A DNA stretch of 64,000 bases from Taeniopygia guttata (lineage: Eukaryota > Chordata > Aves > Passeriformes > Estrildidae), in contig NC_133063.1 in assembly GCF_048771995.1 (NCBI RefSeq), forward strand, positions 69,755,514-69,819,513. Direction: 5' to 3'. Under the pieces are notes generated by a model that ran no database searches, was not told the DNA's origin, and worked only from the letters and a program-made list of their open reading frames with translations. This document shows, piece after piece, positions 3,621 to 60,889 of this stretch; position 1 is the first letter of the stretch, and each line of letters opens with the position of its first letter. A program made the translations under genes and the position numbers.

Positions 3621-5126
3621 GTGAAAGGAGTACATCTTTTGCCATTTCAAGTTCAAGAGGCATCATCCTTCTCTTATTCCAAGAAACACCAAAAATTGTA
3701 TAACCCTTAATGAGTAAAAAAAATTTACAGTAACATTTGGTATAAGAACTCTAGACTTAGAGAAATGTTAAAAAATAATTTAGTACTGAAGCAGAAATAG
3801 TTTTCATTTATACACACAATTTTTCACTTTTGTGTAGATGTTTTTAAGAACAAACCTCCAAAAACCTGTAGATTTTTCAGCAGTGGTCAGCATAGACCTT
3901 ATTATGTCATAAGTCTTCTGTGGCAAACAGAAACACATGAAGATTTAAATAAGTCCCCACTCTTGTCACTAGTAGAGGTCTTCACTGCACACAGAACAGA
4001 ATTATTTAATGACAGTTTGGAAGTACTTGAAGTTTGGGAGCAATAGATAGGCTACAGTAGGCTCTGTTTAGTCCTATATATGTCTTTGACATGCCATGTT
4101 AACAGGATGCGAAGGAAGATTAAGTTGGAAGTTAAATGCTCATGCTACAATGTTCTTAGAATATTTTAAAAACCCAATGATTTCCAAGAAAATGCATTGA
4201 TAGATTGCCAAGTCAGTTTTGGTCAGTTAGAAAATGTATTACTACTAACTATATTTGGGTTGGTTTTTTACATCTTTAGGGGAGAAAACCTCAGAGTGAA
4301 GAAAAACAAGATGTTCTCATACAAATGTTAATATATATTCTGGACTTTAGGATTGAAACCCTGTACTCTAAACTAGAGCAAGTTTTTTTGAGTTGTCATC
4401 TCCAAAATCTGAAAACCCTACCTCACACAATCTATTTTAAAGTTTTCAATTGCTTTCACTGAAAATGTTGAGAAAAGATTTTCTTCCCACTACAAGTAAT
4501 TGTAGTGGTCTTTTTGTATTTGGTCTTTTCCCCAGTGTAAGTCTGCCTATACACTGGAGTCCAAATTATACATAGCTGATCTTTTTGTGTGTTGGCTATG
4601 TTACAGGTTTTTTCCAGCTTGAGAGGTTTTGAATTAAATTTCCTGTAAATTGTTGGCAAATGGCTGATAAAATGGCTAGTATTTACTGTGTGCTCCAAAT
4701 TATTCATGCAGTGGCATGTGGTACTTTTCCTTCTTCTCTTTTCTGCAAATATTTACTTTTTGCAGATGAATTTCTAAAGCCAAAAAAGCACAAACCACTT
4801 GTAGGCAGCTGGTTTTTTTGCTACTCCCATGCCAACAGTTATATATATATATATATAATGTTTTTTAGTAACTTCATTAATGTTTTTCTCTCTATCACTG
4901 TTTTCTAGAGTTTTTCTCTCTATCACTGTTTTCCAGAGATTGTTGTCTTTCAAGATAATTTAATATGACATACTAATTTGAATTAGAAGAAAATTTTGAA
5001 AACCTGTCCATGGACCGAACCTAATGTTGCAACTGTAGGCATAGAGTTATTAAGAGGGGTCCATTGTCAATGAAATACATTAACTCTAATGGTGAAGCTT
5101 GGAGAAGAAAAGTAAGCAAGCAAGCA
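3621..5126. other. Intergenic DNA with a 28-bp tandem duplication
   Basis: Apart from a short TA run near 4841-4857 and a perfect-but-one duplication of a 28-bp unit at 4883-4910 and 4911-4938 (one T/C difference), nothing is recognised. Confidence 0.6.
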
Positions 5127-5602
<476 letters not shown>

Positions 5603-10648: not shown

Positions 10649-10714
10649 ATGAAAACAGTTGTTGACACATCTGCAGCCAAGAGCAATATCCAAATCTTCC
10701 TAGTCCTCTTCAAG
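10649..10714 (+). CDS. IL33: IL33-like coding exon 2 (candidate start exon)
   Basis: This encodes 22 residues starting MKTVVDTSAAK and ending FLVLFK, then a donor AAG|GTATAC in phase 0, which fits the phase-0 start of the next exon. The loose pattern S-x-A-K...L-x-x-K resembles the end of human IL-33 exon 2. An acceptor candidate, CTTATACTTAG, ends at 10614 after a pyrimidine-rich stretch, which would give a short untranslated stretch in the same exon. An upstream ATG at 10626 opens an 8-codon ORF whose TGA overlaps this start codon. Similarity is short and weak, so this is the least secure exon. Other start exons in intron 2 or upstream cannot be excluded. Confidence 0.45.
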
Positions 10715-13700
10715 GTATACCTTACAGAAGAGAGAAAAGAACTGAAGAAATAGGTATGAAAGACATTAGGATAAAAAAATCAACATAGGAAGATGCACAT
10801 AGCACAAAAGACCATGACAAAGAATGAAAAATGTGGGCAGAGGTAACATGTATGCAAGAACATGTAATGATAGGAAAGGTTTATTGAAATTGGAGTATTT
10901 ATATGTCACTCAGTCTTAAGGAATACACGGCAATTAATGGTGTGAAAACTTGTTTTATTTATTGTAAGGAGTTTTAATTGTTCTGGAGAACAATTAATTG
11001 GCTTCTGGAGAGCCAACAGAGGTGAAGTTCTACCACAGAATTTTCTATTTTCTACTTGTTTAAACAAGACAAAGTAATTAAAATTTAGTACAGTCCTTCA
11101 TGACATCAAGGTTACCTGTTACAGAAAGTTTTATCATAGAAAATTTCTTCAGAATTTATCCACTTCCTAAACATGTTTCTGAAAATGTCTTTCAACTGGT
11201 CTGTCCTCTTCAGGAATTCCTCAGTCCTGACTTGTGAACATTCTCCTTTTTTTCTAACCATTCTGAATGTAAGTAATGCAGGTGCAAGACTCTGAACATA
11301 GATCAAAACCGGGAATTGGGATCCTCAGAACCTCTGATCAATAGCAGCCAAACATTACACTTGTTTTCAGTAGGAAACTTGAGTAAGTGATTGTGTGTTT
11401 TTGAGCCTCATAGACCTAGCAAAATCTTAATGCTTTTTTAAATCTTAATGAACGCCTGGAGACTTAGATCTCTAAAGATCCACAAGGTGGCATTACTGTC
11501 CACACACGCCATAGGGCCCGATTCAGGTGGAAGTTTATAGAGACAAGTTTCCTAGTGAAAGAAATACAAAAATGTTTTGTTTTGTTAAGAATGCTCAGTG
11601 ATAAAGCAGTTTTGGCAAGATAAGGAAGACCCAGACTTTTTTTTCTACCTCTGACTGCAAGTTATCACTCATGATACAATGAAGAGCAATCCCATATAAT
11701 AAATGTTTCATTTTTCAGTTATCTAACTGAATGTTGTTATAACTAGAGTTGAAGAGAGTGAATAAGAGCCTTAGCTATTCCTTTTAGTCTGGTAAAAGAT
11801 AACTACCAGGGACAGAAGTCTTTCATTTCATGTCAAAATTTAATACAAAGCTTTCCATCAGGGAAGTGAACCAAACCAGAAAAGGGAACTGCCCTACTCT
11901 TCCTTGGGTGAATTTACAAACCATAACACTTGTGTCAGAGCCATAATCTTTCTGGTCTGACAGACATTTAATTATTCTGTGCAAAGCCACATGGGAATAA
12001 AATTGTACCCATCTTCACTTGTTTCATTCACCAGGATACTAGACTGAATAGAAGCTCATTGTTTTCTTTGGTTTGCACTTGCCATAAACACTTGTCATAA
12101 ACAGGTAATTTCAGGAGAGCATGTAGGCTTTCATCTTCCCTTTCTTTAGACCAAAGTAACATCCTTAGCTCTTCTGAAATACAGTGATATAACTTGCAAC
12201 TTCAGGATACCTTAGTAGCTGCCTGGGTGGTTTCACCATCAAAGTAGTTCACATTCTTAGACGTCAACCTCTCAGGTATCTAATCTGATCTTCCTTAATA
12301 ATGATAACATATTCTTCAAGTTTCCAAATTCCAGACCTCATTTCTAAGTCAAGATTTTCTGAACTTTGGTTTAAGATTGCAATATACCTATGTATACCTC
12401 TGAGAGTCAGATTATGCTGTTTTGAAGTTAGCATAATTTTCAATCACTTATGAATGCTTTGGCAATTATCTTAGACTGTATTCACAAAATTAATGTGATT
12501 TTTCAAATCAGTTAGCAAAATGTAGCTGGCTTCCTATGACTGACAAAAACTAAAGCCACAAACACTTCTTAGATATTATCCAAGGGGAAGTCTTTCAAAA
12601 TATTTTTGTTCAACATGACTGCGTTATCCACGTTGGCGTGCATCTTAGTGGAAATTTAGATAGTTAACTGATTTACCATCACTGGAAACACAGTATTTTT
12701 GCTTTGCAAGACGAAGACTTGGATCATGCAAGCAATCAAGCATTTTTTGAGTTTATTTACTTCTAATAATAGTCATTAATCAAAATTATATTTGAAAACT
12801 TGTTTCTCAATGGAAGCACAAAGTCTTGTGACAAATTCTAATTCCTACTTTAGGACTCAAAACAGAAGTCAAGTGAGATCATCAACATCTTCAGCACCTC
12901 TGCAATGCTGCTCCGCTCAGGCCGTAGAAAGCCTTGTCAAATGCCTCTCCATAGAAGGCAGACTGTGAAGAAGAAATTTCTGCTTAGAAATACAAGAACA
13001 GCTCCTGGGAAGACAGGTAACTCTTACCTGTGTGACAGATGTGATTGTAATCTTGAAAAGAATATTCCAATCCAAGGCAAAATCCAACAAAATTAAGCAT
13101 GCAGAACAGCTTTTCTATGATGCTGTCAAAAAATAAAAATACTTGGTGAAAAATAAACCCAAAAGCTACCTTTAAAATGACCAGAAGATAAATATTCCTT
13201 TAAAATACCTACATTACATTTTTCAGCCCACCATGCTCAGACCAGTAATTCCCAATGTACAAATATACCTCTCTGTAAAAGGGTGAATGATAAGCAGACC
13301 TGCCAACCATTCTAGTTTGGGCACTGTACTAGTTCTTGTAATTCTAATTGTAAGTGGAATTCTTACACTATAGCTACTTCAATATAAAATTTTTAGTGGT
13401 TTGCTGTATTGATTATTGTAGTTGTTCTGTTGCTTTTTAGAACAACACATCTTTTTTTCTGGAAGCCTAATTGCCATCTGCCTTTGAAGAGAAAACTTTT
13501 GTCCAGCCATAAATCAGCTATACATGTAATCAAAGGTCCAACACAGAACCTGCCACTTCTGAAGTGTGTGATTCAACTGTCAGGATGTGCATCATCCTTC
13601 TCTTTTTGCAGAGTTTCTGCTCAGCCTAAACAGGGTGGAAAGAAAGCTTCTTGGAAACAATGGATTTTTTTCAAATATTTGCGTAAATACAGATGTTTCA

Positions 13701-16700
13701 GAGGAATTATCTCATAAAATAAGTAAAAAAGTTTTTGGTGAAATCAAGCATTCCTAAAGCATTATGCTACTGCTGATGCAGTCTGGATATCCTGTTGTTT
13801 TGTTTGCCTAATTATCCTGGTAAAGACAGGATTTTTATCTCACAGCATACCCTGGAGGTCTGTGTCATCTCAGAAACTTCTTAACTGCATTTGAAATTAT
13901 CAAACCTCCTTCAGTAAAACAATGTTAAGCTGAACATAATCAAAATTGTGCCTTATAGTGTTATTCTGGAGGTGTCTGATACCCGAGTGTTCGGACATAC
14001 GTTCTTCTGGCATCAGAACAACACAGCTGTGTTTAGGAATGAAAGACAACAATTTCCCTCCTGGAAGCTTTTAGCTAAAAAGACCTGGGTTTGTTGGTTT
14101 GTGTTTGTTTGTTTGTTTGTTTGTTTGTTTGTTTGTTTGAAGTATGAGCTGTCCAATCCCCAAACTAAATGGTGCTATTTTAGCTAACCATAAGCACTCC
14201 AACCTAAAAGTCCTGTTTACAGCCAGATCCAATATTCAAAATGCAAAATTGGGAAACAGGCAAGTACTTAGTTGTGAAATACAGGAAACTAGTCTATAAA
14301 CAGTATGCTGCAGAGAAACATTCCCTACTTTATCTCTTCTTTTCTTCATAAAGAAACTTACAACTTTATTTTTCACATCTCTCAATTCACAGACTTCTGT
14401 GAACAGCCTTGCTTTGGCTCAGGTTTCCCACAGAGCTGCATTGGCTACTCTAAGTCTACTCATTCACCAGTCAACTGCAAATGTAGACCCACTCTCACAC
14501 GCTCAAATTCATCCTGTCCCCATTAATCTTTACTCTTTTTCAACACAGCTATCTGCATGCAGTCCATCATGTCGCTTTCTTACACTATTACTTAGGCTCT
14601 TGAGTTGAAATCTATTTTGCCAAACTCAAGTTTTCGTATGTTATTTCTCTAAAAGGTTGAGATGCATCTTTTCTGGTCACTGACATAAACTTCTAAGCAA
14701 ATAAATATTTATTTTCCTTCTTCACACCAACACCAAACCCTCAAAACAGCTGCTTAAACCCTCTGGATAATTTCTAGTATATGTTTGCTATACTGCTCAT
14801 AGTTCACATATATTCTATGTATATGTGTAAAGTAAAGTAAAGTAAAGTAAAGATTGTTAAAAATTGGACTTGATATTTTTCTAATGGAATCTTGTAATTT
14901 GTCTGTTGATAGTAAAATTAATTATAATTCATTTTTATTAGTGTTTAGTCTGCGGAAAACATCGAAATGTTTTATACTAACTGAAGATTCAAAAACAGTG
15001 CATTTTGATATAGATGAGGATGGTCATCATGAAATATCTACCAAGGATTCACAATCCCATGAAGGTAATGTTCCTTATGTACCAAAACTCACCAACTGCA
15101 TGTATAGTACTCAGGATATTTTCAAATGTACTATTATGTGTCATGTGTCCCTGGGTCCCTGTCTTCAAGAAAGACACTGAGGTGCTGGAGAATGTCCAGA
15201 AAGGGCAATGGAGCTCGGGAAGGGTTTGGAGCACACGTCTGGTGTGAAGCACTGGAGTGAGCTGGGGGTGTTTAGCCTGGAGGAAAAGAGACTCGGGGTG
15301 GGGACCTTATCTCTACAGCTGCCCAAAGGGAGGGTGTATCCTGGTGGGGGTCGGTCTCTTCTCCCAGGTAACAAGAGGCTGGATGAGGGGAAATGGCCTT
15401 GGGTTTTGCCAGGGGAACTTTAGATTAAATATTAGGAAAACTGTCTTCGTTGCAAGTGCTGACAAGTTTTGGAAGAGGCTGCCCAGGAAAGTGTTTGGGT
15501 CTCCACCCCTGTAGGGATTTATGTGTTTGAATGAGGTGATTAGGAATATGGTGTACTTGGCAGTGTCAGATTATGGTTGTATTCAATGATCATAAGAGTA
15601 TTTCCCAACCTAAATGATTCTGTGGTCCTGGTCTCTGTAGATATAACAATATATTGGATCTGTATGAATATTGATAATGATACAAGAAAACTTTTATTCA
15701 GATTTACAGTAGGTATATTATCTATTTAAATGATAATATTATATTATTCACACTCATTTGATTTAGTGGGAAGTCTAGACATTTAGCTCTAAAGAGAGAC
15801 AAAGGAAAGGTAATGCTCAAGAACAAATACAAAATGAAAGAACAAATGCAAAATGGAGAATAGGGCACATTTTGGAATTTGTGAGCTTATTTTGTTTGTA
15901 ATTTAACTCTTTGTCTCAACTGGGGCTTCAGTATTTGACACCAAAGATGTTATCGTAAGTATCATCACGCAAAGGCTTGTTAGAGAATAGTTAAATAATA
16001 TCTAATGCAATTATTCCAGAAGGATGCAATTATTCTAGAATGACACCATTTCCAGAGATGTGAAAGTAGGAAAAAAACCTCAATAAAACATATTTTTAAC
16101 CAAAAAAGAGGAAAACTGTTCAACTAGGTTGAAATCTTTAAGTTAGCTGTGGAATTACTAAAACTTAACGTCTATTAAATTGAGAATAACAACAGCTACG
16201 CTGATAGGGTACTTAAGTGTGTTTTATATATTTTTTCAGTATCTTTTCCTTGATAACTCCATCAAATTTTGGAGTCAGACAATTATTATTGTTAATTTAT
16301 GAACATAACCAAAACCTGTATAGGAATATAATGGAAGCAGTTTATGGACAGATATATAGTCTGACAAGCCTATAGAAGACAGTGATATTCCTAGAACACA
16401 AAAACAAAAACAAAAACCCCAACAACAACAAAAAGGGAAATGCTGTGTAATATTATTGTGCACATTAGCACCAAGACATATATTCATGATGCAGTTAAGA
16501 CAACATAATATTAGGAACCAGTTGTAATGAGGATGCTTGTGACATTTTTACCAGAAGTGGGTGGTGTTTTCCCCAGCTGACTGGCTGTGTGATTCAGGCT
16601 GACGTTAGAAAAGCCAGAAACCACTTGCTATCATTACCTGTTGCCTTCCAATCCCATACATTTCACATTAAGGTACTCACTTTCACTGCCAAAGCACTTC

Positions 16701-19700
16701 AGGCTTCTCTTTAATAGTGTACCAGGCTTTACAGCTGGCCACCAACCTCCTGGTTCTTAGGTGCATTCTCTGTTGCAAAAGAAAATTAAGCAATCAATAC
16801 ACTTTTTAGGCTCAGTGTTCAGACTTCAGTGTATCTGTTCACAAGTCTAACTGTACAGCCTTACAGAGTTAAATGAATTCAGAGACCCTCAAGAAAAGAA
16901 ATCTGATATCTGTTGTTATTACATACTTCTTCTCAGATTATGTTTCAAAACAATTCTTGAAACTGTTTGTATTCTTTTTAAATCTATGAGGAATGTAGCT
17001 CTCTAATTCCACATATTTGTTAAATACCTTCTATTTTAGATATTGCGTGGTTAAGTGTGTTCACAACGAATGGAGCAGCAGTTACTGATAAACGTCTTGT
17101 GGGAAAAAAAGGTATCATCTCTTTGTTAGGGTCTGGTTTTGAAGATACATTTGAGTGTAGGAGAAGATGGTAGCAGTGTTTTACACATAGACTTGCCATT
17201 TGAAGTAACATATTGTATCAGATTTTTCACTTAGCTCAGGTTACTGGACAGGTCTAAAAATAAAAGAGCCTTTCTGTGTTCCATGAGAAAATCTTCAAAG
17301 TTACAGAATTTGTAAATTAGGAGTAGTGGTTTGGATTAGAAAAAAAAAATGTATGTAAGGGAATACATTGTATACAAACTGGAACATACAAAATTTTTTT
17401 TGTAGAAAAGTGTGGGTGTTACATTGCTGGCATATGAGTCTTAAAGTGAAGACCTGTTTTAGCAGGAGAGGAAAACCAAAGAGAAATTAATATGAAGAAA
17501 GAGGAGGCACTCTTTCACAGCTTTCATATTGTACACTTAAAAAATTATTGAGAAAATCAAGGATATATTAGTTCAGGTATTAGATTGGAAGAAAAATACA
17601 CTCTAATTACAGACATCAAGGGCTCCTGTAACCAATAAGAACAAATCCAATCCATTACTGCACCTTGAAGAAGGGACAAATGAGATTTCTAGGGAACAGC
17701 ATAAAAATACTGATATCCTCTCAAATCCCAAAGCTTCACATTTTAGGGATATCCCCAAGAAAGACATTTTTAAATTTATTTCATTTCAAGGCATTTTCTT
17801 TGCATGGATTTTAAAATTGCCCCTTAGACTCTGATAAGGTTTTAGTGACCAGAGAGACAAGGTAATCAATTCAAAAGCCATTACAGAGTGGAAGTATCTT
17901 TGGCATACAATCATGGAAAAGTTCCTTACTTTCCTTGCCATTCTCTGGCTGGTTGATAAACCACTTGTCACCTCTTTTAGAGGTGATAGAGAAAAGCTGG
18001 GCTCCTTTGGACTTAGTCAGATTTAACAATGTATAAGCAAGTCACAATAAACTCTACAGAAGGAGAAAGACAAGGATAGTTAGGATATAAGTCATGTTGA
18101 TGCATGTCTCTGGTCAACTGGATGAACTCCTGCGTACCTCTTTTGTTGTCACTCTTACCTTCAAGAGAGAACACTCTTGACTTGGATAAGAAAACTTTCT
18201 TGCCTGTTGATATATCTCTTAAATGCTACAACTGAAATTGGACAATTGCAGCTGAGGTAATCTAAGGTGATGTCACAAAACGTAATAAAAATTACAGAAC
18301 TGTAGGCCTGCTATGGTGGTCTACCAGATTTATCTAAATACTCATTTAAACTGAATAAAGCATAGTCACTTTGAGTTTTTCTCAATTTTTTACAAGGATT
18401 TTTATGCTATTTTCATGCTATAGCTATCTCAGAAAAATGCCTTCAGAAGAATAATACAAAAGCATTACAGTTAAGGAAAGTTAAGGCAAGTAAAATCAGG
18501 GCCAAGAGCATCTAAAATTAGTCAAGTGAGATGAATACATTCTGTTAATTCTGAATAGCCTTCAAAAGTTAAAAAATGCCTTTGATAATACGTAAAAAAC
18601 CTCCAAACTTCTTAACTGTGTTATTGCATAATAAACTAACGTCTTTTAAGTTTATGTTCAGCTGCTGCAGTTAAATATAGATCAACTGCTAATTTATTTT
18701 ATATTTTTTACCTTAAATGGAATAATTTTAAAAGCACAAGAGGTGTTTTTTGAAATAAGTTTGCAAGTCAGTCAGATAAGTATGCAAATTTAAAGTCTCA
18801 CAAAGTCACAGGCTTTAAATACTTTAGACAAGAGAATGGTATGAAGAGTGATTGTATCTATTTCTATTTCCATGCCTATAAACTATGTTTACTCTTTGTA
18901 GAGCATATTCAGCTCTTTATTTTATAAGGTGATACTCATATTATTGCAATATTCTCCTCTGTGTAAAACAGATTCTAAAAATTTGGTGAGCCTTACACAG
19001 AGATCAAAGCTTAATGAATTTGTCCTGTTGTGCAAGGGTAAGAAGCATCTCTCTCTAAAGGTAAGAAGTTGTTTATTTTCTTTATAACATGTGGGTTCTC
19101 TTTCTTACTATAAGACAATTTCCTATAGAGAAGTTTTCAAATCCATTTTTATTACCACTTTCCACATTTCATAACTTCTGAATATGTCCCTTAATTATTT
19201 TTGGGAAATACTCAAAGAAGTTTATTGCAAAAAATTTGGGTTGTGTAGTTAACTACTGCCACTTGAAGATAGTCAGGGATGTTAGGGTCCAGTCTCTGTG
19301 GAAGAAGAGAGAGCTTCTTAGCCAGAAAACATGCAGGAAGATAAGAGGGGAGTAAAAAGCAGAAATCTTGCCTTGGAAAGAGATGAGTTTAAGATGGAAA
19401 TTATTTTCTTCCAATGAACCCACATTACAAGACAAGGAATGTGATAAAGAGAAAACACAGCTGAACATCCAGTTTCAAACATTTAACATCTGGTGTCTAA
19501 GAATTCCCATTTTCTCCAGCCTTGTGAAGGTTTCTTTCTGATAGGAAGGGAAGGGAAGGCAAGGCTAGTCTTCCCCAGTGAGGGATTATAACCATTGCTA
19601 AAATCTGTCTGAGGAAGTTCAGTCAGGGCTGCATTTCTAAATAGGACCTGGGCATTACACAGTTTGGAGGACTGTCTTGAGTATTTGCTTTCAACCCAAT

Positions 19701-22700
19701 TTAATTTGCATTGCAAATGGTAAAGGTGGAATATATTAATGGAAGTTTTTCAATAATTTATAAATTTATTAATTTTGGATTATTTGAATGTAATAATTAA
19801 TGAACTTCAAAAAAAAGGTAATTTTCTTTAGAATTACTGCCACATCTGATGGGTTTGAAAAGTGAAATATATGAAAAAATTACCAAATTAAATTACAAAA
19901 TTAACAAATATGTGTGTTGTAAACACAGGTTTTAAAAGCATCCTGTTCAGAGCCAGATGGTCCTTCACTGGAGAGATGTAATATGAAAACATGCAGCCAT
20001 GAAGATCCTGACTTTAAACAGGTATACAATCATGATCAAACAAATATCAACCTGTGTGTGAGACTGTGTATGCAAATACAGGTGTGTAAAAAGGGCAGCT
20101 AAATTCATCCTGTTACTCATTAAGTGACAAATTGCTTACTTGTCTTTCAGCTGATTTTTTGGGTTTTTTTCTCAGAAAAGGGAAAACACAAAATTTTCCC
20201 TTGAATTGTATTTATGACTACATCCTTCAATCTCCAGGCAAAATATATGACTTTCAATTAAAACATGAAAGGTGGATATATTTCCTGTATTATTATGCTT
20301 ATACAAAATGGAGGTAGATACAAAGTAGATTTTATCTAATACAAATTCTTAGGCAAGAGGCTGAAAATCTGAGTGAGTAAATTAGCAGATAGGATCTAGA
20401 AGATCTAGAAGGATCAGATTACAAAGTTGTGGTGTTTTAAGAACTAATGAATCCATTAGTCATAAACTTCTGGGAAGTAATAAGACCCTGTCATTTTCAG
20501 GATTTTTTCAGATGAATCAGAAATTCATCTGATTAATTTCATATCATCAGATGATTATGAATCAGGATTAATGCATTGTGGAAAGAAATACAGATAACTG
20601 GGTGGTTTCTTCACATATTTTTGTAACAAAAGCTTGGTTTTGTCGATTCTTTTCTATATAGAAATGATAAAACATAGTACCCACATGACGGAAATTAGTT
20701 TGGGATACCTAAACTTTAGGGATACTCTTGGGATACCTAAACTTTAGGGTAATAGAAGTTATAAACCTACAGAAAATGAAAAACTATGTAGCTAATAATA
20801 TTTTTTATTAGAATTGTATCCCTGTGACTTTATCATTCAACTGAAAAGCCAAACTTTCCAATTTCAATAGGCAAAATTAGAGCTATCTGGACCCAGGTAG
20901 TTTCAGAACTTCATAAGAGAGACTCTGAAACCCTGAAAACCTTAAATTCCCAGCTCAAAATTTCTAAAATGCTGACTTCAATCATAAAGCATAGAATTAA
21001 TAATTCTGGTAAATTGACGTCTATCTGAAGTGGTTTTCAAAAGGCATGAGCTACACTACTACTAATTAATTAATAAATCTGCTGCATTCTGGGCCTGGAA
21101 AATCTAAATGGGTCCTTCAGTTAAGTTCTGCTGAGTTACTCATCTGCCACTAATATTTCTTGGCTCCCTACAGAAGGAGAAAGCAGTAAAGCTTAGGAAA
21201 ATTTTAATACAACTTTTAGTACCCCCCCCCCCCTTGTATGCTGTAAACAATCACAGTCATATTGAATTTTGAGCATTATATTTAATACACTTTTTTGTGT
21301 CATGCACTTTTTTAACATAAAAATACATGCCTTTTCTGTGGAGCTGTTCACAGAGGCTTAGTATCTTTTCGCAGCATCTGGAAAGAGCTGTAACAATTGC
21401 CTGTAGAGACCTATGTATCACTTTGGGTTTTTAAACATAATTAAAATGCAAAATTCTTTCTGGAAACCCATTCATTACCTAGTAAGACAGATAGTGATCT
21501 GCTCATCATGGTTTCTTGCTGATACTCTGAAACAGAAGAAAAAATGTCACTCATTTGTATGAGGAGAAATCAGAAGCCTGCACTTGAACCACATCCTGTT
21601 GGGTAAAGAGGCAAAATCATAGGCAACTCTGAATCATGGGATCCTTAATAACCATTCTAAAATGAGTGTACTGATCAGTAAATAATTCCTAGCATGATGA
21701 ATAGTGCTTGCATTGTCCTTAGGATGAGAAAGTGTGGGAGTAGTGCACTGAGATGGAGAAATACTTCTCATGGATAATGACAAAGCTATTCAGATCTGCA
21801 ATGTGATATTTATTCTGCTAGCTTTGAATAGTAAATCTTAAAGACGGGCATTTTCTTTTTTTTTATTTGAAGACTGCCAGTAGAATTAGCAGAAATATGA
21901 GAATGTGTGGACCCTCTCATTATACCAGGAAGAGCTATATATAGTGTAGTAAACATTCATTTCTGTAACCAAGGCTATTGAAATATGGTTCACAATCAAT
22001 ATTAATTTAAACATATTTTATTAAACTTAATTAAAATATTAATTAGGTTGTAATAACAATAAATAATTTATAATTACAGCAAATAATAATTTACAATAAC
22101 ATCTGATTCTGATTGGGGATTAAGTCAGAAAGGCAACACAGGTGGCAACCAATATTTATTGCAATGCTGTTGTGGTAGGAATGGAAAACTGCACTGTAGA
22201 TAAAACTATGGCCTCACACTGTTCACACAGAGGCAGCATCCCAGCCAGAGCAGCAGTGGAGAAGCTGGCCCCAAGAGTTCACTCAGGAGCATTTACTTAC
22301 AATTGTGATTATTCTAACTCTATTATAGACCATGCTTATCATAAACTATAATATCATAGAAGACAATGCAGTTAACTGCACAACAGAATGATGTCAGAGC
22401 TACAGAACAGTATTTCACTTTAGATTCTCCACTTAAAAGGTTTTCCCAGTTCCCCCACCCATTGCTCATAATTCTCCCAGTAGGTAAGACAGTTCCCATT
22501 TTACAATTTGCATTAATTTTGTGTTATTTTTTTACTGTTTCTATTTTTTACTCTTCCAGAAGTGCAGAAATTACTGAGCCTGTAATGGTTATCAAAGAAG
22601 CACACATCTTCTTCAGTACTTACCTGTAGTGTCTCACTTTAGTGTAACTACTGTTCTGGTTCAACCATAATATTTTATGTGTTCTTGACCCATTCCTACC

Positions 22701-25700
22701 CTCAGACTTTTGAGGATGTATTCATTACACTTTCAGCTTTTCTTAAGTACTTGTAGCACTCAATTTTCCTTCTGTTAAATCTTCATGAATTAAAACATTT
22801 TCTTAAAAGAATACTAGAGGATAGAATTCAACAATTTCAATTGCTGGATCAGGCTGCTTCTCTTCAAGATGTTGTTCCTTGCTGGATAATGCAAGTTTAT
22901 TAGATCATTGTATCTGGACAGCATTTCCCAAAGTTTTGACAGGAATATCCAAGCCTGGGTGGACTGAAAGATTGCAGCTGTGAAAGTTCTATTAAGAGCT
23001 GTAACAGTTTTTATTCCACAGTCCCCTCTGTTTTACTGAGCAGTTTGACGAAGACAAGAAAGAGATTTTACCAGAGGCTACGCAGTCATGAAAGACATTA
23101 CTCTTTACTCCAGTTAAGTAGGCCAAAATAAACTCTAAACATGTAAAATCTGGCGAGGCCCACAAAGATATCTTGGTTCTGAAGCTTTGACATTGTAAGA
23201 ACTCACAATGCCATCTTTACTGTGCTTGGCAGCAGGCTGACAGGGGCACAGCCCTTTTGGCACCCAGCATGCAGCTTGAGGTTTCTGGGTTTTTTTGCTC
23301 CAAAAGTTGATTCACTTTTGCAAAGCCAAGGAGTGATCAGCAAGCCTCACTCACTCTTCAGTAATCACATATGGCCAGTGTAGAAGTCTGATGAAAGTTG
23401 AAAGTGCACTGCTCTGGGCTGAACAAAGTCATGCTGCCATTGAGGGCTGCTGTATCAGACCCTGCATCTTCGGTATGAATGGAATCAAAGGTGGCAGCTT
23501 TTGCATTCCTTTTGTGAATGCTACAGCTGATATTGCCACAGCATTTTTCTTGATCACTTTGGCGCAGGCCGAAGTTTGCTTTCAGTGGAGGGATGTACAG
23601 TACACCGGGAGCTGACTGGTCCAGGGCTGGAAGCACAGCCCTACTATTTGTCAGGAAGGACCAACTGTGGTAAAACAATAGACTGAGGTGTGTTGCTCTA
23701 GCCAGAATCCAAACCCCTGCCCCAGATATTCGTGCAATCCCACTCCGTGACAGTGGACAGGGGAGAGAATATGCAAGAATCTACACCTCACTTCTTAAGA
23801 TTTCAAAAGGATAATTGAACCACAACAAGTTACTGAATAAGGAAAAAGAAACAGTGCTGGGTGCTTAGCTGCAGCCAGATGCACACTGCCCAATAATTCT
23901 TATATATGCTATTGACAAGCCAACCCCCTGGTAAGCCAACCCTCCCCACACTTGTGCCTATGTCACTCTTCCATCTCAGCTCCTCCTTCATCCTGCTTTT
24001 TGCAGTTTGTGCAGTTCTTCTTGCTTCAACTTTCCCAATGGTCAGAGATCAACTTTCAACATTACAAAACTTATATGAAAAAAACACCAGATCTTAACAG
24101 AAAATCTTTTAACCTTATAATATACGTTTAACATTCATGAGAGCCAGCAGCACTCTATCAATTTATTACAGAATAGCAAGAACAAAAGTAAGAAAATTTT
24201 TGAGTTCAGAAAAAACTCAAAAGTAAAACATATGAAGGTCAGAAAAAACCACAAATGATGAAAAATCACTTGCTCATCTTCTCCCCTGACCAATGCTCAG
24301 CCAGTCTCTGAGCAGTAGTCTTCTCAGAAGCAAACACCCATCCTCTCAATCCTACATTTTCCATCCTCTGTACCAGGCTTTATGACTATTTTAACCACAG
24401 ACCACATAACTAATTCGTAATGACTTCCAACGCCCATAACTTCTGTGATGCAATTGAGGCAGCAGCTCAGATTTACTTGTCTGCTTACCATCATTGCACT
24501 ACTCATGTCTCTTTGTTCACATGCCCTTTGATTCCTTGCTGTATCTGAGGCGAAATGTAGATTGCAGTGTGCCCTGCACTCCTTTGTGTAACCTATCATA
24601 ACACCACAAGATGCTCTGTTTCAGCTGGCCTTCCAATACATTTCTTCTTATCTTCTAGTTTCTTCCTAGGTTAGAATGCAGCATTTGAACCTAGCTTGGA
24701 GTAATGCTCATTGTACCATATTCGATCTGACTTTATATAATTTTGAGTCTATTTATTTTAAAATTTGTAAACTACTCTCTCACATCTTTTTTTGTAGTTC
24801 CCATCACTGACCTTTTCTTCTTTAGCCTGTGAAGACAATATTTGTGGCATTTTTCTGACATGAGCATATGTGTTCAATTTCAAGTGCATGGTGAATCACC
24901 TGTAGGACATGAATAAAGGTGAAATTTTTGTCATTAAATGTGAAGCCTAAGCTGTAAATTTGTTCTTTACTTAATGCAATAGAAAACAAAATATTGGATT
25001 GTAATTAAAAATCAGTAGTCTTTTTTCTTGGAACTTGCAAATTATCTTGACTCCTACTGCAGAAACTGTCCTCAGGAGGAATTTTATCTGGCAGTAGACC
25101 ACCACATTCCCCAGGTTTTCTTGTCATCCTTCTTTATAGGTCATAATAGAAAATCACCTCTGCCATGATTTCTTGCAAAATATTTTGTTCTTTCCAATGA
25201 CCTACTGCACCTCCCAGCCCTAAAGGTGTTTCATTATGCTTCTACTCTGAGTTCAATGGTGCTTTGTTATGCTTCTACTTCTCCCTCTCCCAATCAAATA
25301 GTGTCATTCTCCAAACCATTTTCCTCTTACAGTTTTCCATCTAATTTTCTATCATTTCATGCAGGTACAGTAGGTATTTTTAAACTTCTGGATCTCAATC
25401 TGCTTTTGTGAGCATGTAAATTTTGCTTTACAAAATGCCTTTGAAATCTCCCTTGCTCTAGCATGAATTTCTGCATTGTACATACAATGGTCTCTCCTGG
25501 CTTCTACTGGTTTTCTTTCACCAAACTTTCTTATTCCTTTTATGTTTACTTTTTACCATTCTGAGTCCCTAGAAGGTATTTGTTTCCCGAAGACCAATAT
25601 TCTTCAACTTTCTTAATAGTATTTTTTAAAATTTTAATATTTTTGATTGAAGCTGCAGACACTTTTGCTACATTGAATTGATCAGGACAGAATGTTCTAG

Positions 25701-27370
25701 CTTCTTCCCATTATAGTTTTGCTGATAACAGAAGATGTATCCTCAAGTTTCCTTGAGGTACTCTGCTATAACTGCAGGACATTTTCTTTGCATCTCCTGT
25801 TGTCATACAGGCTAAAAGGACAGATTGCTCCTTCGGTCAAAAGGTGATTATTGTCAATGCTTTAATCTCCAGCAAACTGGTACCCTTAAATATGCTCCTG
25901 CGTTTCCTCAAGCATTCAGTTTCCTTTTTCCCCTTAAGCAAGGGGACCTCATGATAATACACCAGACTAATCAGAGTTATAGAACTGGATGGGACATGGG
26001 CAGAGTTATAGAACATGGGTGGAACAAGACTGTTCAATGGGTTCACTCAAAAGGAAAGTTAAAATAATTTGATTATGATACATTCAGTCTTTCCCAAAAG
26101 ATACTATGAATTCCCTGCTCTGTGGCAGGAAGCTGAGTTGGGGGAACACAAATCTTGACCTTCTATTAATTAATGTCCCACTATTAGCATCAGGTAACTA
26201 TTGACACAGTATTCTCAGTTACTCCTTTGCTCAGTGCACACAGACAGGAGCAGGGGCTCACACCCCACCCCAGCAGGCTCCAGGCAGCTGTGAGCAGTCA
26301 CACCCAGGGGTGCTGGTTTCAGCAGCTGTGCTCACCCAGGGGTGCTGGTTTCAGCAGCTGGGCTCACCCAGTGCCCTGCAATCTCTGTCCAGCCACAGCA
26401 GCTGCTCGGATGTCCTGTGCATTACACAACCCGTGGTAGGTGCTGGAGGAGCGCTGGGGACCACGGGCAGGTTCAGCAGCCCTTTGTGCCCCAAGCTTAA
26501 CAGTTTCTGCATATTTCAGCACATATTCTTCCTCTCTCTGGCATGATGATTTTTTGTAACTATTTCTCCATCCCTACCCTGAGGTGCCCAGTCAGCCCAA
26601 ACACATATGAAAGCCCCTCCACCCACACACAGAGTAGCTCTTTAGACAATAGCTATTGCTCCAGAGATAGATCTTTTTAAAAATGCATTGGAAACTGGAG
26701 ATATACAGTAGTATACACAGGTAATAAAGTGGTTTAAGAGTAATTTCTACTGTAACATTCTGATTTTATGTCAAAGGAGGCAAGAAAAACTGTGGATTAG
26801 CATTTTACTGCTAGTGTCAGTTGACAAGGTAGGCCTAGGGTGAGAAAATAACCAGATGAAAAACCTAAGTTATTGTAAATACACTGAGGAAACTGTTCTG
26901 GTGTTTTAGTGAAGCAAAGGTATGCATCTGTTAGTCTGGTATTACTCAGTCTTTGAGGGACATGGGTATTATTTTTATTCATAGTCATCACAGAATCTAC
27001 CTCAAAATTATTAGTTGTTGCCTAAGGTTTATTTAAAAATTGGTAAATATGAGTCACTGGAGAAAAGCATAACAGGCATAAAATATAACAAATCAACAAC
27101 ATACATGAGTTTTTGTCACATTTGATGTTATAGAATGGCATTAGAAATACAATGTGTTTTTTACTTTGTGTATTTTCGTAGCTGAGTGAAGATAATAACT
27201 TTTTCATCATGCATTACCAAGGAGATTCAGTGCAGTTCCAATGCTATGAAGATAGAAGTTACTATCTGTGTGTGAATGATGACTCACTTGATATTCGCAA
27301 GCTGGAAAACAAAGCGCCCAATGAGGACAAAAATTTTTACTTCAGGGTGTCATATTTACAGGAAAAGTAA
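10649..27370 (+). CDS. IL33: Interleukin-33-like cytokine gene (seven coding exons)
   Basis: Coding exons: 10649-10714, 12854-13016, 13612-13722, 14942-15064, 18972-19060, 19929-20021 and 27182-27370. They total 834 nt, that is 277 residues plus TAA. All introns are GT-AG, and phases match at every junction (0,1,1,1,0,0). Residues 23-76 form a basic nuclear segment with L-R-S-G at 42-45. About 78-113 is a linker, and about 116-277 an IL-1-family beta-trefoil. No signal peptide is visible, as expected for IL-33, a nuclear alarmin released on cell damage that signals through ST2 (IL1RL1) and IL1RAP. Human IL-33 has 270 residues with the same exon order. C-terminal motifs (FFIMH, VQFQC, VNDDSLDI) align better with IL-33 than with IL-18 or IL-1B. 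No stop or frameshift is seen. The first exon is less certain than the rest; if it is wrong, translation could start at Met 12905. A divergent IL-1-family paralogue is the main alternative. Confidence 0.85.
10715..12853 (+). other. Intron 2 of the IL33-like gene
   Basis: About 2.1 kb without recognised repeats. It contains a CTCF-core-like word, CCACAAGGTGGCA, at 11480-11492. No other convincing exon was seen. Confidence 0.5.
12854..13016 (+). CDS. IL33: IL33-like exon 3: nuclear, nucleosome-binding domain
   Basis: The acceptor is CCTACTTTAG|G and the donor GACAG|GTAACT; the exon starts in phase 0 and ends in phase 1. It encodes about 54 residues, 23-76 of the model. It begins DSKQKSSEI, reminiscent of human KSQQKAKEV, then carries MLLRSGRRK, matching the human nucleosome-binding motif M-K-L-R-S-G, then HRRQTVKKK, resembling human FRRETTKR, and ends in a KT-(G/E) junction exactly where human exon 3 ends. 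In human IL-33 this peptide binds the H2A-H2B acidic patch and holds the protein on chromatin. Basic clusters RRK, HRR and KKK could act as nuclear localisation signals. The bird exon is about 12 residues longer than the human one. An internal in-frame acceptor at AACAG (exon start 12869) would shorten it by five residues. Confidence 0.85.
13612..13722 (+). CDS. IL33: IL33-like exon 4: linker between nuclear and cytokine domains
   Basis: It has a strong acceptor, CTCTTTTTGCAG|A, and a donor ATAA|GTAAAA. The exon is 111 nt, phase 1 to phase 1, and adds E77 (split codon) through I113. It reads FLLSLNRVERKLLG then NNGFFSNICVNTD. The R-K-x-L-L-G segment resembles mouse RKRSLLG in the same exon. 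In human IL-33 this exon carries the sites cut by neutrophil and mast-cell proteases that release the more active form. Primary sequence here is poorly conserved, as is usual for this exon even among mammals; length, phase and position carry the assignment. Human exon 4 is 126 nt. Confidence 0.72.
14101..14139. repeat. (GTTT)n microsatellite
   Basis: About nine GTTT units in intron 4 of the IL33-like gene. Confidence 0.95.
14827..14852. repeat. (GTAAA)n pentamer repeat
   Basis: Five GTAAA units about 90 bp before the exon 5 acceptor. Each unit contains a donor-like GTAAA word. Confidence 0.95.
14942..15064 (+). CDS. IL33: IL33-like exon 5: first beta strands of the cytokine domain
   Basis: The acceptor is TTTTTATTAG|T and the donor GAAG|GTAATG. 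It is 123 nt, phase 1 to 1; human exon 5 is 126 nt. Residues 114-154. The segment KCFILTEDS followed by the acidic HFDIDEDG aligns with the human stretch from ITFALEDE to IYVEDL, which opens the beta-trefoil and supplies acidic residues to the ST2 contact surface. The split codon with exon 4 reads Met114. The only alternative acceptor nearby (TTTAG, six bases downstream) would be in the wrong phase. A GTAAA pentamer repeat sits about 90 bp upstream in the intron. Confidence 0.82.
15140..15630 (+). mobile_element. CR1 LINE 3' fragment in intron 5
   Basis: The sense CR1 signature reads GTGAGCTGGGGGTGTTTAGCC, then GGAAGAGGCTGCCCAGG, then 'cccaacctaaatgattctgtgg' at the 3' end. It lies about 75 bp downstream of the exon 5 donor and is heavily mutated, so it is an old insertion. 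Confidence 0.8.
18972..19060 (+). CDS. IL33: IL33-like exon 6: central beta strands
   Basis: The acceptor is TGTAAAACAG|A and the donor AAAG|GTAAGA. It is 89 nt, starts in phase 1 and ends in phase 0, encoding D155-K184. The run EFVLLCKGKKHLSLK fits the IL-1-family strand pair seen in IL-1B as VALGLKEKNLYLSC and in IL-33 as MLMVTLSPTKDFWLHA. The segment NLVSLTQRSK would match human VLLSYYESQ. The loop holding the human caspase-3/7 site DGVD is shorter here and has no D-x-x-D. A second donor-like GTAAGAAG lies 23 bases upstream of the chosen one. Confidence 0.8.
19929..20021 (+). CDS. IL33: IL33-like exon 7: beta strand and long cysteine-rich loop
   Basis: The acceptor is TGTAAACACAG|G and the donor AACAG|GTATAC. 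It is 93 nt, phase 0 on both sides, and only this phase is open (the other two meet a stop). Residues 185-215. SEPDGPSLERC aligns with human NNKEHSVELHKC, putting C201 opposite human C208. The rest, NMKTCSHEDPDFKQ, is a longer acidic loop than in human IL-33 and adds C206; C190 is also extra. It leads straight into the last exon. Confidence 0.8.
20701..20749. repeat. Tandem duplication, 28-bp period
   Basis: TGGGATACCTAAACTTTAGGG occurs at 20701 and again at 20729. Confidence 0.9.
26301..26371. repeat. Tandem duplication, 32-bp period
   Basis: CACCCAGGGGTGCTGGTTTC followed by AGCAGCTG(T/G)GCT occurs at 26301-26332 and 26333-26364, with a third partial unit. It lies in a locally GC-rich patch. 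Confidence 0.9.
27182..27370 (+). CDS. IL33: IL33-like exon 8: C-terminal end of the trefoil and stop
   Basis: The acceptor is TATTTTCGTAG|C, and the open stretch runs 62 residues to TAA at 27368-27370. It starts LSEDNNFFIMH, continues DSVQFQCYED, then YYLCVNDDSLDIRKL, then NFYFRVS near the end. This matches the human IL-33 C-terminus in order: FFVLH, VSFEC, VKDNHLALIK, ILFKLS. C236 aligns with human C232. The tail is four or five residues longer than in human. This exon is the clearest single piece of homology and was the anchor for finding the others. It lies 7.2 kb beyond exon 7. Confidence 0.9.
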   Translation: MSEDNNFFIMHYQGDSVQFQCYEDRSYYLCVNDDSLDIRKLENKAPNEDKNFYFRVSYLQEK

Positions 27371-27653: not shown

Positions 27654-27659
27654 AATAAA
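27654..27659 (+). terminator. Polyadenylation signal of the IL33-like gene
   Basis: A canonical AATAAA lies 284 bases after the stop codon, giving a predicted 3' UTR of about 300 bases (27371 to about 27680). A GT-rich stretch further upstream and T-rich stretches downstream are compatible, but the cleavage site is not determined. Confidence 0.5.
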
Positions 27660-30576: not shown

Positions 30577-30965
30577 ATATTATATTATATTATATTATAT
30601 TATATTATATTATATTATATTATATTATATTATATTATATTATATTATATTATATTATATTATATTATATTATATTATATTATATTATATTATATTATAT
30701 TATATTATATTATATTATATTATATTATATTATATTATATTATATTATATTATATTATATTATATTATATTATATTATATTATATTATATTAATTATATT
30801 AATTATATTATATTAATTATATTATATTATATTATATTATATTATATTATATTATATTATATTATATTATATTATATTATATTATATTATATTATATTAT
30901 ATTATATTATATTATATTATATTATATTATATTATATTATATTATATTATATTATATTATATTAT
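30577..30965. repeat. (TATAT)n pentamer array, about 390 bp
   Basis: Near-perfect period-5 TATAT repeats, broken near 30790-30817 by TAATTATATTAA variants. The Y/I-rich open frames across it are artefacts of the repeat. Confidence 0.97.
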
Positions 30966-34818: not shown

Positions 34819-37028
34819 TGTTCTTTGTTAAACCTTGTGAGATTCCTGAGGATCCACTTCTCAAGCTTTTCCAGGGCCTTCTGAATGACATCCCATGTTT
34901 TAGGTGTCCCAACCATATCACTCATCTTGGCATCATCTGTAAATTCACTGAGGGTGCATTCAATCTGTTTGTCTATGTCATAATAAATATATCAAATAAC
35001 ACTGGTCCCCATATGGGGACACACCACTTGTCACAGATGTCCTTTGACCACAACCCTCTGCATGCCACCATCCAACCAATTTCTCATCCACCTAACAATC
35101 CACTCAACAAATCCATCTGCTTTCATTCTAGAAAGAGGATATTGTGAGGCCTGTGTCAAAGGCTTTACAGAAGCCCAGATACAGGACATCTGTCGCCCTT
35201 CCTTTGCTTACCAATGCAGTCACCCCACCACAGAAGGTCATGGGGTTGGTCTGGCAGGACCTGCCCTTGGTGCAGCCATGCTGCCTTTCCTGAACCACCT
35301 CCCTGTCCTATGTGTGCCTTAGCACAGCTTTTGGGAGGGCCTGTTCCATGATCTTCCCAGACAGAGAGGTGAGGCTGACAGGCTGGTACTTCCCAGAGCC
35401 CTCCTTTCTAACTTTTTTGAAGATGGGTACAATGTTTTCCTCTTTCCTATTACCTAGGATTTCACCTGACTTCTGAGACATTTTCAAATATCATGGAGAA
35501 CAGCCTGGCAAATGCATCAGCCATTCCCTCAGGAGCTTGGGATGTATCTCATTGGGCCCCACAGACCTCTGTACACTCATGTTCCTTAAGTGGACCTTTA
35601 CTTTCAGTGGGAAGGACTTTGTTCCCCCAGTCCCTGTCCTACTGTCTATACTCCCAGGAGATGTGGGAAGAAATGTTGCCCTTGAAGGCTAAGGCAAAAT
35701 GATATTGAGTACCTCAGCCTCTTCCTCATCTGTTGCTTCTGGTTTTCCATCTGTGTTTATCAGCGGGGGTCACCTTCTCTGGCCTTCCTTTTGTGGTTGG
35801 CATGCCTGGAGAAGCCCTTCCTGTTAGTCTTTGTGTCCTTTGCCAAGATAAATTCCAGTTTTGCTTTGGGCTTTCTCCCCCTGACCCTGCATAACCAAAC
35901 TTGATCTCTTCCAGGTCTCTTCAACTGCTGGTGCATTTGCTTCTTTCCCTTCAGTCTGACAAGCAGTTCCCTACTCAGCCCCTCTGTTCCCTTGCCTTCC
36001 TTGCCCAGTTTCTTGCTCCTGGGGATTGCCAGTTCTTGTGCTCTGTGGAAGACTTCCTTAAAGATGTGCCAGCTCTGTTCCACTGCCTTGTCCTGAGGGA
36101 AGTCTCCCAGTGGATCTCACTGGCTATCTCCTTGAAGAGCTGGAAGTCTACTTTCCTAAAGTTCAGGGGCCTGACTTTGTTCCTTGCCTGGCCCATACCC
36201 CTCAGGACTGCAAACTCCAGCAGTGTGTGATCACTGCAGCCCAGACTCCCTCCAAGCCTGATGCTCAAGATCAGCTCACTTACACTGGTGCCCATCAGAG
36301 CCAGGATTGTATCCCCTCTGGTAGGGCTGCTGTCTGTTCCTTTGCTCCAGAAGGTATCTCTCATGTGTTCCAAGAGTCTCCTGGCTTGCCTGCAGCCTGC
36401 TATGCTGCTTTCCCAGCAGAATTTGGGATGGTTGAAGTGCCCCAGCAGGACAAGAGCGTGTGAGCAAGATGCCTCCTGTAGCTGGAGCAAGAAGGTTTCA
36501 TCAATAGGGTCCCTTTGATCAGGGGTCTGTACTTAAAGCCATCCACAAGGTTTCCTTTGTTGCCTCAGTCCCTGATCCTTACCCACAGGCTTTTGTCCTG
36601 CTCCTGGCTGCTCTTCAGAGACAGTCTTGACACTCAGTCTACCTGCTGATGTAGGGGCACCCCCTCTGCCTCTCTCTTTCCTCACCTGTCTCTTATGGAG
36701 AGCCTGTAGCCACCGGTAGTTGCACTGCAGCCATAGGATTTGTCCCACCAAGTTTCAGTACTGGCACTTGTCACATAAAAAGGGAGATTTTCTCCAACCC
36801 TTAATGTGTGATTAGTCTGTCCATGCCCCAGGAAAGCCAAGACCCTTGTGCCTGACCAGTCTGTCAGTGTCTCGATACTGGCACCCTTCACTGAGCCATT
36901 CCCCAGATTGGAAGGCAGTTCAGCTGACTTGTTTAGGGTCACACGCCAAACAGAGACACCCCGTCCTGGGTCTTCGTACCTTTACCTATTGCAAGTGACT
37001 GCCACTGCCCTTGAAGGACTTACATTAC

Positions 37029-60640: not shown

Positions 60641-60889
60641 GCAGTAATATAACTTGGTTTTGTTATGTTGCAACGAAAAAGCAGCCAAAAAGGCTTGGGA
60701 AGCAGCCAAAAGGAAGCCATTTGTCAGACTCTGGAGCCAAGAACTGTACAAGATCTATGCGTCTTCTTAGCAGGATGCTAAAATACCAAGTTGCCTTACT
60801 GGAGCAGGGAAATATTGAACCTAAGACTGGACCTCAATTGTAATCCTATCCAGGACCCGGAACTGGAGTTATACACTGGTGGGAACAGC

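Follow-up and report, generated by a model that had tools for sequence, protein, structure and literature searches.

The 64,000-nucleotide stretch of zebra finch DNA analysed here (the window) contains a seven-exon gene resembling IL33, an observation which we confirmed. IL-33 is an immune alarm protein. We are highly confident that this gene is the bird IL33 orthologue, open throughout and present as a single copy in the assembly, and that it most likely works as its mammalian counterpart does. The preliminary description of this DNA had proposed an IL33 orthologue, and this reading is supported by a sub-threshold match to the IL-33 profile, the presence of MLLRSG in exon 2 and a mammalian gene order.

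Structure of the candidate gene

The seven coding exons extend from 10649 to 27370 on the forward strand and, when re-derived from the DNA, join into an 813 nt frame encoding 270 aa and a stop. All six introns are GT-AG, with 12 of 12 splice dinucleotides intact, and the phases at the six exon joints are 0/1/1/1/1/0. This recovered the single open frame of seven exons with GT-AG introns and matching phases that had been described previously. The outer coordinates given then were exact, as were two exon sizes of 111 and 123 nt, which correspond to coding exons 3 and 4. The count of 277 codons was not reproduced, as the frame holds 270 codons plus stop, or 275 if a different exon 3 donor is used.

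Coding exon 1 (10649-10714, 22 codons beginning MKTVVDTSAAK, with a phase-0 end and a GT donor) was placed mainly by position and is the least certain of the seven. The start codon is uncertain, because a further in-frame ATG is located upstream at 10589. Coding exon 2 (12854-13016, 163 nt) encodes the predicted nuclear or chromatin domain, including MLLRSG (codons at 12905-12922) and a basic tail. Coding exon 3 (13612-13722, 111 nt), assigned from its splice sites, phase and position, encodes the putative linker; a second donor after 13737 would give an exon of 126 nt and a protein of 275 aa. The predicted beta-trefoil starts in coding exon 4 (14942-15064, 123 nt), which carries the acidic stretch DIDEDGHHEISTKD, and continues through coding exons 5 (17040-17111, 72 nt) and 6 (18972-19060, 89 nt, with a phase-0 end). 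Coding exon 7 (27182-27370, 189 nt including the TAA) encodes the C-terminal part of the trefoil, contains the match to the IL33_bt domain and is the best-conserved part of the candidate. Downstream on the same strand, the first AATAAA or ATTAAA hexamer past the stop (27654-27659, 284 nt away) is a candidate polyadenylation signal by pattern only. Scanning the window against Rfam and for tRNA genes gave no hits, and four window ORFs regarded as transposon remains had no Pfam match.

Similarity to IL-33 along the protein

The motif MLLRSG is located at residues 40-45 and occurs once in the six frames of the window. The chromatin motif of IL-33 is given as MXLRSG, within aa 40-58 (PMC8750818). 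MLLRSG fits this published pattern in the expected N-terminal region, and this evidence is independent of the domain search. Shuffling the window 200 times produced 10 occurrences of MXLRSG.

The sole Pfam match of the joined protein was PF15095 (IL33_bt), with an E-value of 0.0024. This improved to 0.00052 with the trefoil part alone and 0.00062 with the last exon alone. The scores of these matches, 18-20 bits, stay under the curated cut-off of 27 bits, and no IL33_bt match was obtained once the last exon was removed. Partial queries also gave weak matches to the unrelated families DUF5672 (E 0.034 for the trefoil part, 0.031 for exons 4-6) and DUF7652 (E 0.16 for the last exon). The Pfam IL1 family was not listed as a match up to E 10, in a search whose filters drop most matches above about 0.1, and an NCBIfam search of the candidate protein gave no match. 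When sequences from PDB were searched, four of the five matches up to E 10 were IL-33 (E 0.045-0.16), and none was IL-1B, IL-18, IL-36 or another IL-1-family chain. Alignment of the candidate to a human and mouse IL-33 profile with hhalign was collinear over 127 columns, with 27% identity, a pairwise E-value of 4.7e-5 and a probability of 68%, and was insignificant (E 0.21) without the last exon. In the comparison with IL-1-family profiles suggested in the preliminary description, the profile and structure-sequence searches named IL-33 and no other member of the family. At the scale of the 1.14 Gb genome, searching with IL33_bt returned one match, exon 7 of this gene (E 4.3), and searching with the joined protein returned eight, seven of which were its own exons and the eighth of which had an E-value of 0.92. 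At the sensitivity of this tool, these searches showed no second IL33 copy in the assembly.

We assessed the contribution of each part by shuffling the bird sequence 2000 times per part and scoring it against human IL-33. The score of the whole protein was reached by 0 of 2000 shuffles, as was that of exon 7, while that of exons 1-2 was reached by 12. Exon 4 was weak alone (126 of 2000), and the score of the protein minus its last exon was reached by 140 of 2000. Exons 5-6 had no significant similarity (784 of 2000), and no likeness of exon 3 to the human linker was detected (1648 of 2000). The resemblance to human IL-33 is concentrated mainly in exons 2 and 7.

Each of the five internal exons was also ranked among the phase-compatible AG-ORF-GT candidates within 10715-27181 (454 to 509 per exon), using splice weights and comparison of each candidate with the expected human stretch. 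Exons 2, 4, 5 and 6 ranked first on splice sites, codon use and similarity together. Exon 2 (combined rank 1 of 491) was 215th on codon use alone, exon 4 was first of 509 both on similarity and combined, exon 5 was first of 509 on splice sites plus codon use and 157th on similarity, and exon 6 was first of 454 on splice sites and combined and 29th on similarity. Exon 3 had a combined rank of 34 of 509 (24th with the other donor), with a rank of 299 on codon use alone and of 3 of 509 on splice sites alone (2nd with the other donor). Codon use alone favoured exon 5 only (rank 2 of 509). Spliced alignment of human IL-33 under two stricter intron penalties recovered exon 7 alone, with scores of 69.6 and 69.0; the maxima over 38 shuffles were 58.9 and 57.0, and the minus strand scored below these (47.4 and 42.0). 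Under a loose intron penalty the alignment threaded mostly other exons and only partly those of the model, and was dropped as evidence.

Chromosomal neighbourhood, receptor and alternative readings

The genes surrounding the candidate are, in order, MLANA (+), KIAA2026 (-), the candidate IL33 (+), UHRF2 (+) and GLDC (-), with MLANA upstream and GLDC downstream; KIAA2026 was identified by a KIAA2026_hel match (E 5.2e-56). This order and orientation are those of the human genome. The IL33 block has been described previously (PMC4090809). A synteny comparison had also been proposed, and it places the candidate in the mammalian IL33 block, between KIAA2026 and UHRF2. RANBP6, previously named as an expected neighbour, was not seen in the joined 223 kb or between the flanking genes, unlike in mammals; the sole frame of its size there (1239 aa) matched no Pfam family, and we regard it as an exon of KIAA2026. 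The contig carrying the candidate (82 Mb) is probably the Z chromosome.

In the same genome, the two best of 27 matches to human ST2 define a gene at C1:86484254-86498736, inside an IL-1-receptor cluster. Its match rank and place suggest that it is ST2 (IL1RL1)-like. At five contact positions of human IL-33, the candidate keeps an acidic residue at three, with K and T at the positions of human E148 and E165.

The candidate shares with mammalian IL-33 (IL1F11, NF-HEV) an N-terminal MXLRSG motif followed by a putative linker and a predicted C-terminal IL33_bt-like trefoil sequence, the gene neighbourhood and orientation, and a genome that also contains an ST2-like gene. It differs in overall identity (26-29%, with 71 of 243 aligned residues identical in one comparison), in a shorter stretch ahead of exon 7, and in the position of the motif, which starts at 40 as against 45 in the human sequence, five residues nearer the start. 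By eye, the alignment also indicates that the human DGVD stretch, a caspase site, is not kept and that three of the four human trefoil cysteines are not retained. Seven coding exons and a length of 270 aa are also those given for human IL-33 (PMC8750818).

We consider it unlikely that this IL33 orthologue no longer works here, as a recent pseudogene or an untranscribed relic. Such decay would fit the low identity and the differences at two of five contact positions and three of four cysteines; however, the seven open exons with intact splice dinucleotides and matching phases, the first rank of four of five internal exons among about 500 candidates each and the intact chromatin motif all argue for a working gene. 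It is very improbable that a different IL-1-family gene occupies the gap between KIAA2026 and UHRF2, or arrived there as a copy. IL-1B, IL-18 and IL-36 (Pfam IL1 family) are cytokines sharing the fold class of IL-33, the trefoils of the family are alike in fold, and with similarity this modest fast-evolving cytokines are hard to place. However, neither a Pfam IL1 match (most matches above about 0.1 being filtered out) nor a PDB chain of these cytokines was listed up to E 10, the four flanking genes keep mammalian order and orientation with no second copy found, and the candidate has an N-terminal MXLRSG exon, whereas we know of none in IL-1B, IL-18 or IL-36.

Least probable of all is a chance joining of unrelated open stretches under the expectation of an IL33 gene. 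This would be favoured by the availability of about 500 phase-compatible candidates per exon, the insignificant similarity of exons 3 and 5-6 alone and the weakness of exon 4. Against it, the genome-wide profile search points here alone, the motif falls in the right exon, and mammalian IL33 occupies the same position.

If the gene is the working IL33 orthologue that we favour, its product would lack a leader sequence and be made by barrier or endothelial cells. MLLRSG near the N-terminus would hold it on chromatin in the nucleus, at the acidic pocket of H2A-H2B. Cell damage would set the protein free, the linker encoded by exon 3 may be trimmed, and ST2 (IL1RL1) with the shared accessory chain would bind the predicted beta-trefoil. 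Receptor-bound IL-33 would then raise the alarm to lymphoid cells.

Bird IL-33 and the mammal-only view

Several papers from 2014 to 2025 describe IL-33 as mammal-only or as unfound in chicken. Papers reasoning from a mammal-only IL-33 present ST2 as an orphan receptor that later acquired its ligand (PMC5861070), tie the cytokine to pregnancy (PMC9020223) or treat the ligand of chicken ST2 as not identified (PMC4090809). In the turkey genome paper, none of turkey, chicken and zebra finch is listed with an IL-33. A 2015 review names bird IL-33 in passing, with the chicken Ensembl accession ENSGALG00000020558 (PMC4690019), which the later literature available to us does not take up. The mammal-only view from which bird IL33 had been taken as unreported is widespread in print, but since this review cites a chicken accession, bird IL33 is disputed rather than unheard of. 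The chicken candidate, known from its accession in one sentence, is, like ours, a bird gene named IL-33 that is poorly conserved with respect to mammals, and we presume it to be the counterpart of the zebra finch gene. In the sources available to us, we found no earlier description of bird IL33 as an intact frame with its chromatin motif and with its flanking genes in unbroken order.

We think it likely that the ancestor of mammals and birds already carried IL33, chromatin tether included, with KIAA2026 and UHRF2 on either side, and that birds still use it as a nuclear alarmin for ST2, in which case ST2 would be no orphan in birds. Because an apparently intact IL33 occupies the mammalian chromosomal place, birds probably have the partner of the IL-33 receptor. 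Chicken regulatory T cells have been reported to over-express IL1RL1 (PMC12716188). If IL33 is indeed as old as we propose, the published view in which ST2 came first and acquired IL-33 as a partner no earlier than the mammalian line would be mistaken, and an intact bird IL33 would date the gene to the amniote ancestor or earlier. A bird gene with the motif and a conserved place also shows where to look, and the receptor-ligand pair would be testable in poultry. The small size and divergence of its exons had been offered as the reason for which the gene was overlooked, and this fits the genome-wide IL-33 profile search, which finds the last exon only.

Gene model and chance expectation

Seven coding exons that very probably make up an IL33 orthologue were re-derived on the + strand where the preliminary description had reported a complete copy of that gene (10649-10714, 12854-13016, 13612-13722, 14942-15064, 17040-17111, 18972-19060 and 27182-27370). 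The model extends over 16,722 nt; its six introns (2139, 595, 1219, 1975, 1860 and 8121 nt, in order) all have GT-AG borders, and the phases at the exon joints (0, 1, 1, 1, 1 and 0) fit. The joined frame encoded 270 aa and a stop rather than the 277 codons previously claimed. A second donor of exon 3, after 13737, gives an exon of 126 nt and a protein of 275 aa, and an upstream in-frame ATG is located at 10589. The accessible part of a review gives human IL33 seven coding exons and 270 aa, the same counts as in the bird model (PMC8750818).

We ranked the internal exons amongst phase-compatible AG-open-frame-GT stretches within 10715-27181 (454 to 509 per exon), using splice weights, codon use and similarity to the human stretch expected for each exon. 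Four of the five (exons 2, 4, 5 and 6) ranked first on the combined splice, codon and similarity score. Exon 3 had combined rank 34 (24 with the other donor) and rank 3 (2 with the other donor) on splice sites alone. Similarity alone placed exons 2 and 4 first, splice sites alone placed exon 6 first, and codon use alone favoured only exon 5 (rank 2), with exons 2, 3, 4 and 6 at ranks 215, 299, 83 and 57. When each segment was shuffled 2000 times, no shuffle of the whole protein or of exon 7 matched the similarity score against human IL-33. Exons 1-2 had 12 shuffles that matched it, exon 4 had 126, exons 5-6 had 784 and exon 3 had 1648; with exon 7 left out of the protein, 140 did.

Similarity to IL-33 and the chromatin motif

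The profile search proposed in the preliminary description returned a single Pfam family for the whole protein up to E 10, PF15095 (IL33_bt, the IL-33 beta-trefoil; E 0.0024, 18.3 bits), with residues 125-265 aligned to positions 13-158 of the 158-position profile. The trefoil part alone (E 0.00052) and the last exon alone (E 0.00062) also matched, though all IL33_bt scores of the protein and its parts fall below the family cut-off of 27 bits. Exons 4-6 searched alone had no IL33_bt match and exons 1-3 alone had no Pfam match; the searches by parts gave weaker matches to DUF5672 (E 0.034 and 0.031) and DUF7652 (E 0.16). Amongst sequences of solved structures, four of the five matches were IL-33 (E 0.045-0.16) and the fifth was an unrelated arginine sensor (E 0.33). 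The alignment of a human and mouse IL-33 profile with the bird protein covered 127 columns at 27% identity, with a pairwise E of 4.7e-5 and a probability of 68%; for the protein lacking the last exon, E was 0.21. Of the 146 trefoil positions aligned in a three-way comparison, 38 carry the human residue.

The N-terminal part was not used by the domain search, and the chromatin-binding motif it carries is therefore an independent line of evidence. This motif, MXLRSG, is located in aa 40-58 of IL-33 according to the portion available of PMC8750818, and exon 2 encodes MLLRSG at residues 40-45. Counting six frames, this is the only such motif in the window; 200 mononucleotide shuffles of the window contained 10 in total, and when the protein was shuffled 20000 times, the motif arose in 4 cases.

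Genome-wide, the joined protein gave eight matches up to E 1, seven being its own exons and the eighth located on another contig (C3, E 0.92). The IL-33 profile searched against the six-frame genome had no match at E 0.001 and one up to E 10, which was exon 7 (16.5 bits, E 4.28); a single candidate passed the first filtering step. This search leads to the IL33 locus without bias, and its weak score shows how easily the gene escapes detection.

Genomic neighbourhood

The genome searched comprises 1.14 Gb in 41 contigs, and the contig carrying the gene, C40, is 82.2 Mb long; the window corresponds to C40:69755514-69819513. IL33 exon 1 starts at C40:69766162. To its left lie MLANA (C40:69691135-69694416, +; both matches above cut-off, with one of 14 control genomes also matching, below cut-off) and KIAA2026 on the - strand, comprising a helical domain (C40:69743234-69744781, profile E 5.2e-56) and a bromodomain exon within CpG-rich sequence at about 69751 kb (E 1.8e-6); a 1239-aa frame left of these domains, without Pfam match, was assigned to KIAA2026 by place alone. 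To its right, UHRF2 starts on the + strand with a ubiquitin-like exon in a CpG-rich stretch (C40:69821847, E 3.1e-8), followed by SRA-domain matches that we assign to it, at C40:69882049-69882159 (above cut-off) and C40:69892152-69892310 (below cut-off), both +; two further SRA-domain matches, on C30, were assigned to UHRF1. All six GLDC matches (C40:69919733-69930549, -) were above cut-off. We take the human order to be MLANA, KIAA2026, RANBP6, IL33, TPD52L3, UHRF2, GLDC. The predicted synteny held for UHRF2 and GLDC, whereas RANBP6, which presumably adjoins IL33 in human, was not seen as a large frame in C40:69694416-69822000.

The genome has five DM-domain matches, of which three fall at 68.08-68.18 Mb of C40 (C40:68078580-68176112), about 1.5 Mb upstream of MLANA, and the rest on C10. 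Since a DMRT cluster marks the avian Z, C40 is probably the Z chromosome. The available text of PMC4090809 describes the block on chicken Z, places RANBP6 and TPD52L3 elsewhere, infers a breakpoint with a lost or moved IL-33, and allows IL-33 in the vertebrate ancestor as a possibility. In contrast, the zebra finch block shows no break between MLANA and GLDC and spans less than 240 kb.

IL33 is the sole cellular gene recognised in the KIAA2026-UHRF2 gap of about 70 kb, from an inspection of ORFs of at least 130 aa and Pfam searches with four ORFs of the gap. An AAAG microsatellite (5109-5602, about 124 copies) opens spurious frames of 180-230 aa on both strands, and an ATATT array (30577-30965) holds about 78 copies of its 5-base unit. 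Two nearly identical 185-aa frames, at 35978-36532 (-), which had no Pfam match, and C40:69715185-69715739 (+), are oppositely oriented and separated by about 76 kb; they are presumably copies of one CR1-type bird LINE. We also take a short 3' sequence in the window to be CR1-like, and short frames at about 60844-61752 (+), two of which had no Pfam match, to recall retroviral remains.

Previous reports, a putative receptor gene and differences from mammals

The gene is of a known kind, and the literature on birds is divided, several papers standing against one sentence. In the parts accessible, IL-33 is described as restricted to mammals (PMC5861070, PMC12108812, PMC9020223, PMC8750818), as having arisen in marsupials (PMC8226699) and as unidentified in chicken (PMC4090809); the table of the turkey genome paper has an empty IL-33 entry for each of turkey, chicken and zebra finch (PMC2935454). 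Contrary to this view, one 2015 sentence in the available text of PMC4690019 mentions a chicken IL-33 entry, which therefore already existed and may correspond to the zebra finch gene. The portions seen of PMC13299143, PMC7934940, PMC11240496, PMC4662006, PMC13076529 and PMC12390377 contain nothing on bird IL33, and a non-exhaustive literature search turned up no account of a bird IL33 that covers its exons, motif or location.

A human ST2 (IL1RL1) query gave 27 matches in the genome. The interval C1:86484254-86498736 contains the best two, at 51 and 48% identity, together with two Ig exons at 41 and 40%. By rank and place it is a putative ST2 gene, and it sits inside a cluster of similar IL-1-receptor-type genes (C1:86431855-86548978) with all matches in one orientation. 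This cluster agrees with the conserved receptor cluster of chicken in the available part of PMC4090809; according to that of PMC12716188, IL1RL1 marks regulatory T cells in chicken.

The bird product would most likely be a chromatin-held alarmin for ST2, and the control of its activity may differ from mammals even with the receptor pair kept. In an alignment that was in part read by eye, the bird residues opposite human DGVD, which we take to be the caspase site, are altered, and three of the four human trefoil cysteines lack a partner. Human E148 and E165, presumably ST2 contacts, are K and T in the bird protein, whereas an acidic residue is kept at E144, D149 and D244; the E144 match requires a one-residue insertion in the alignment, and mouse IL-33 has V at this position.
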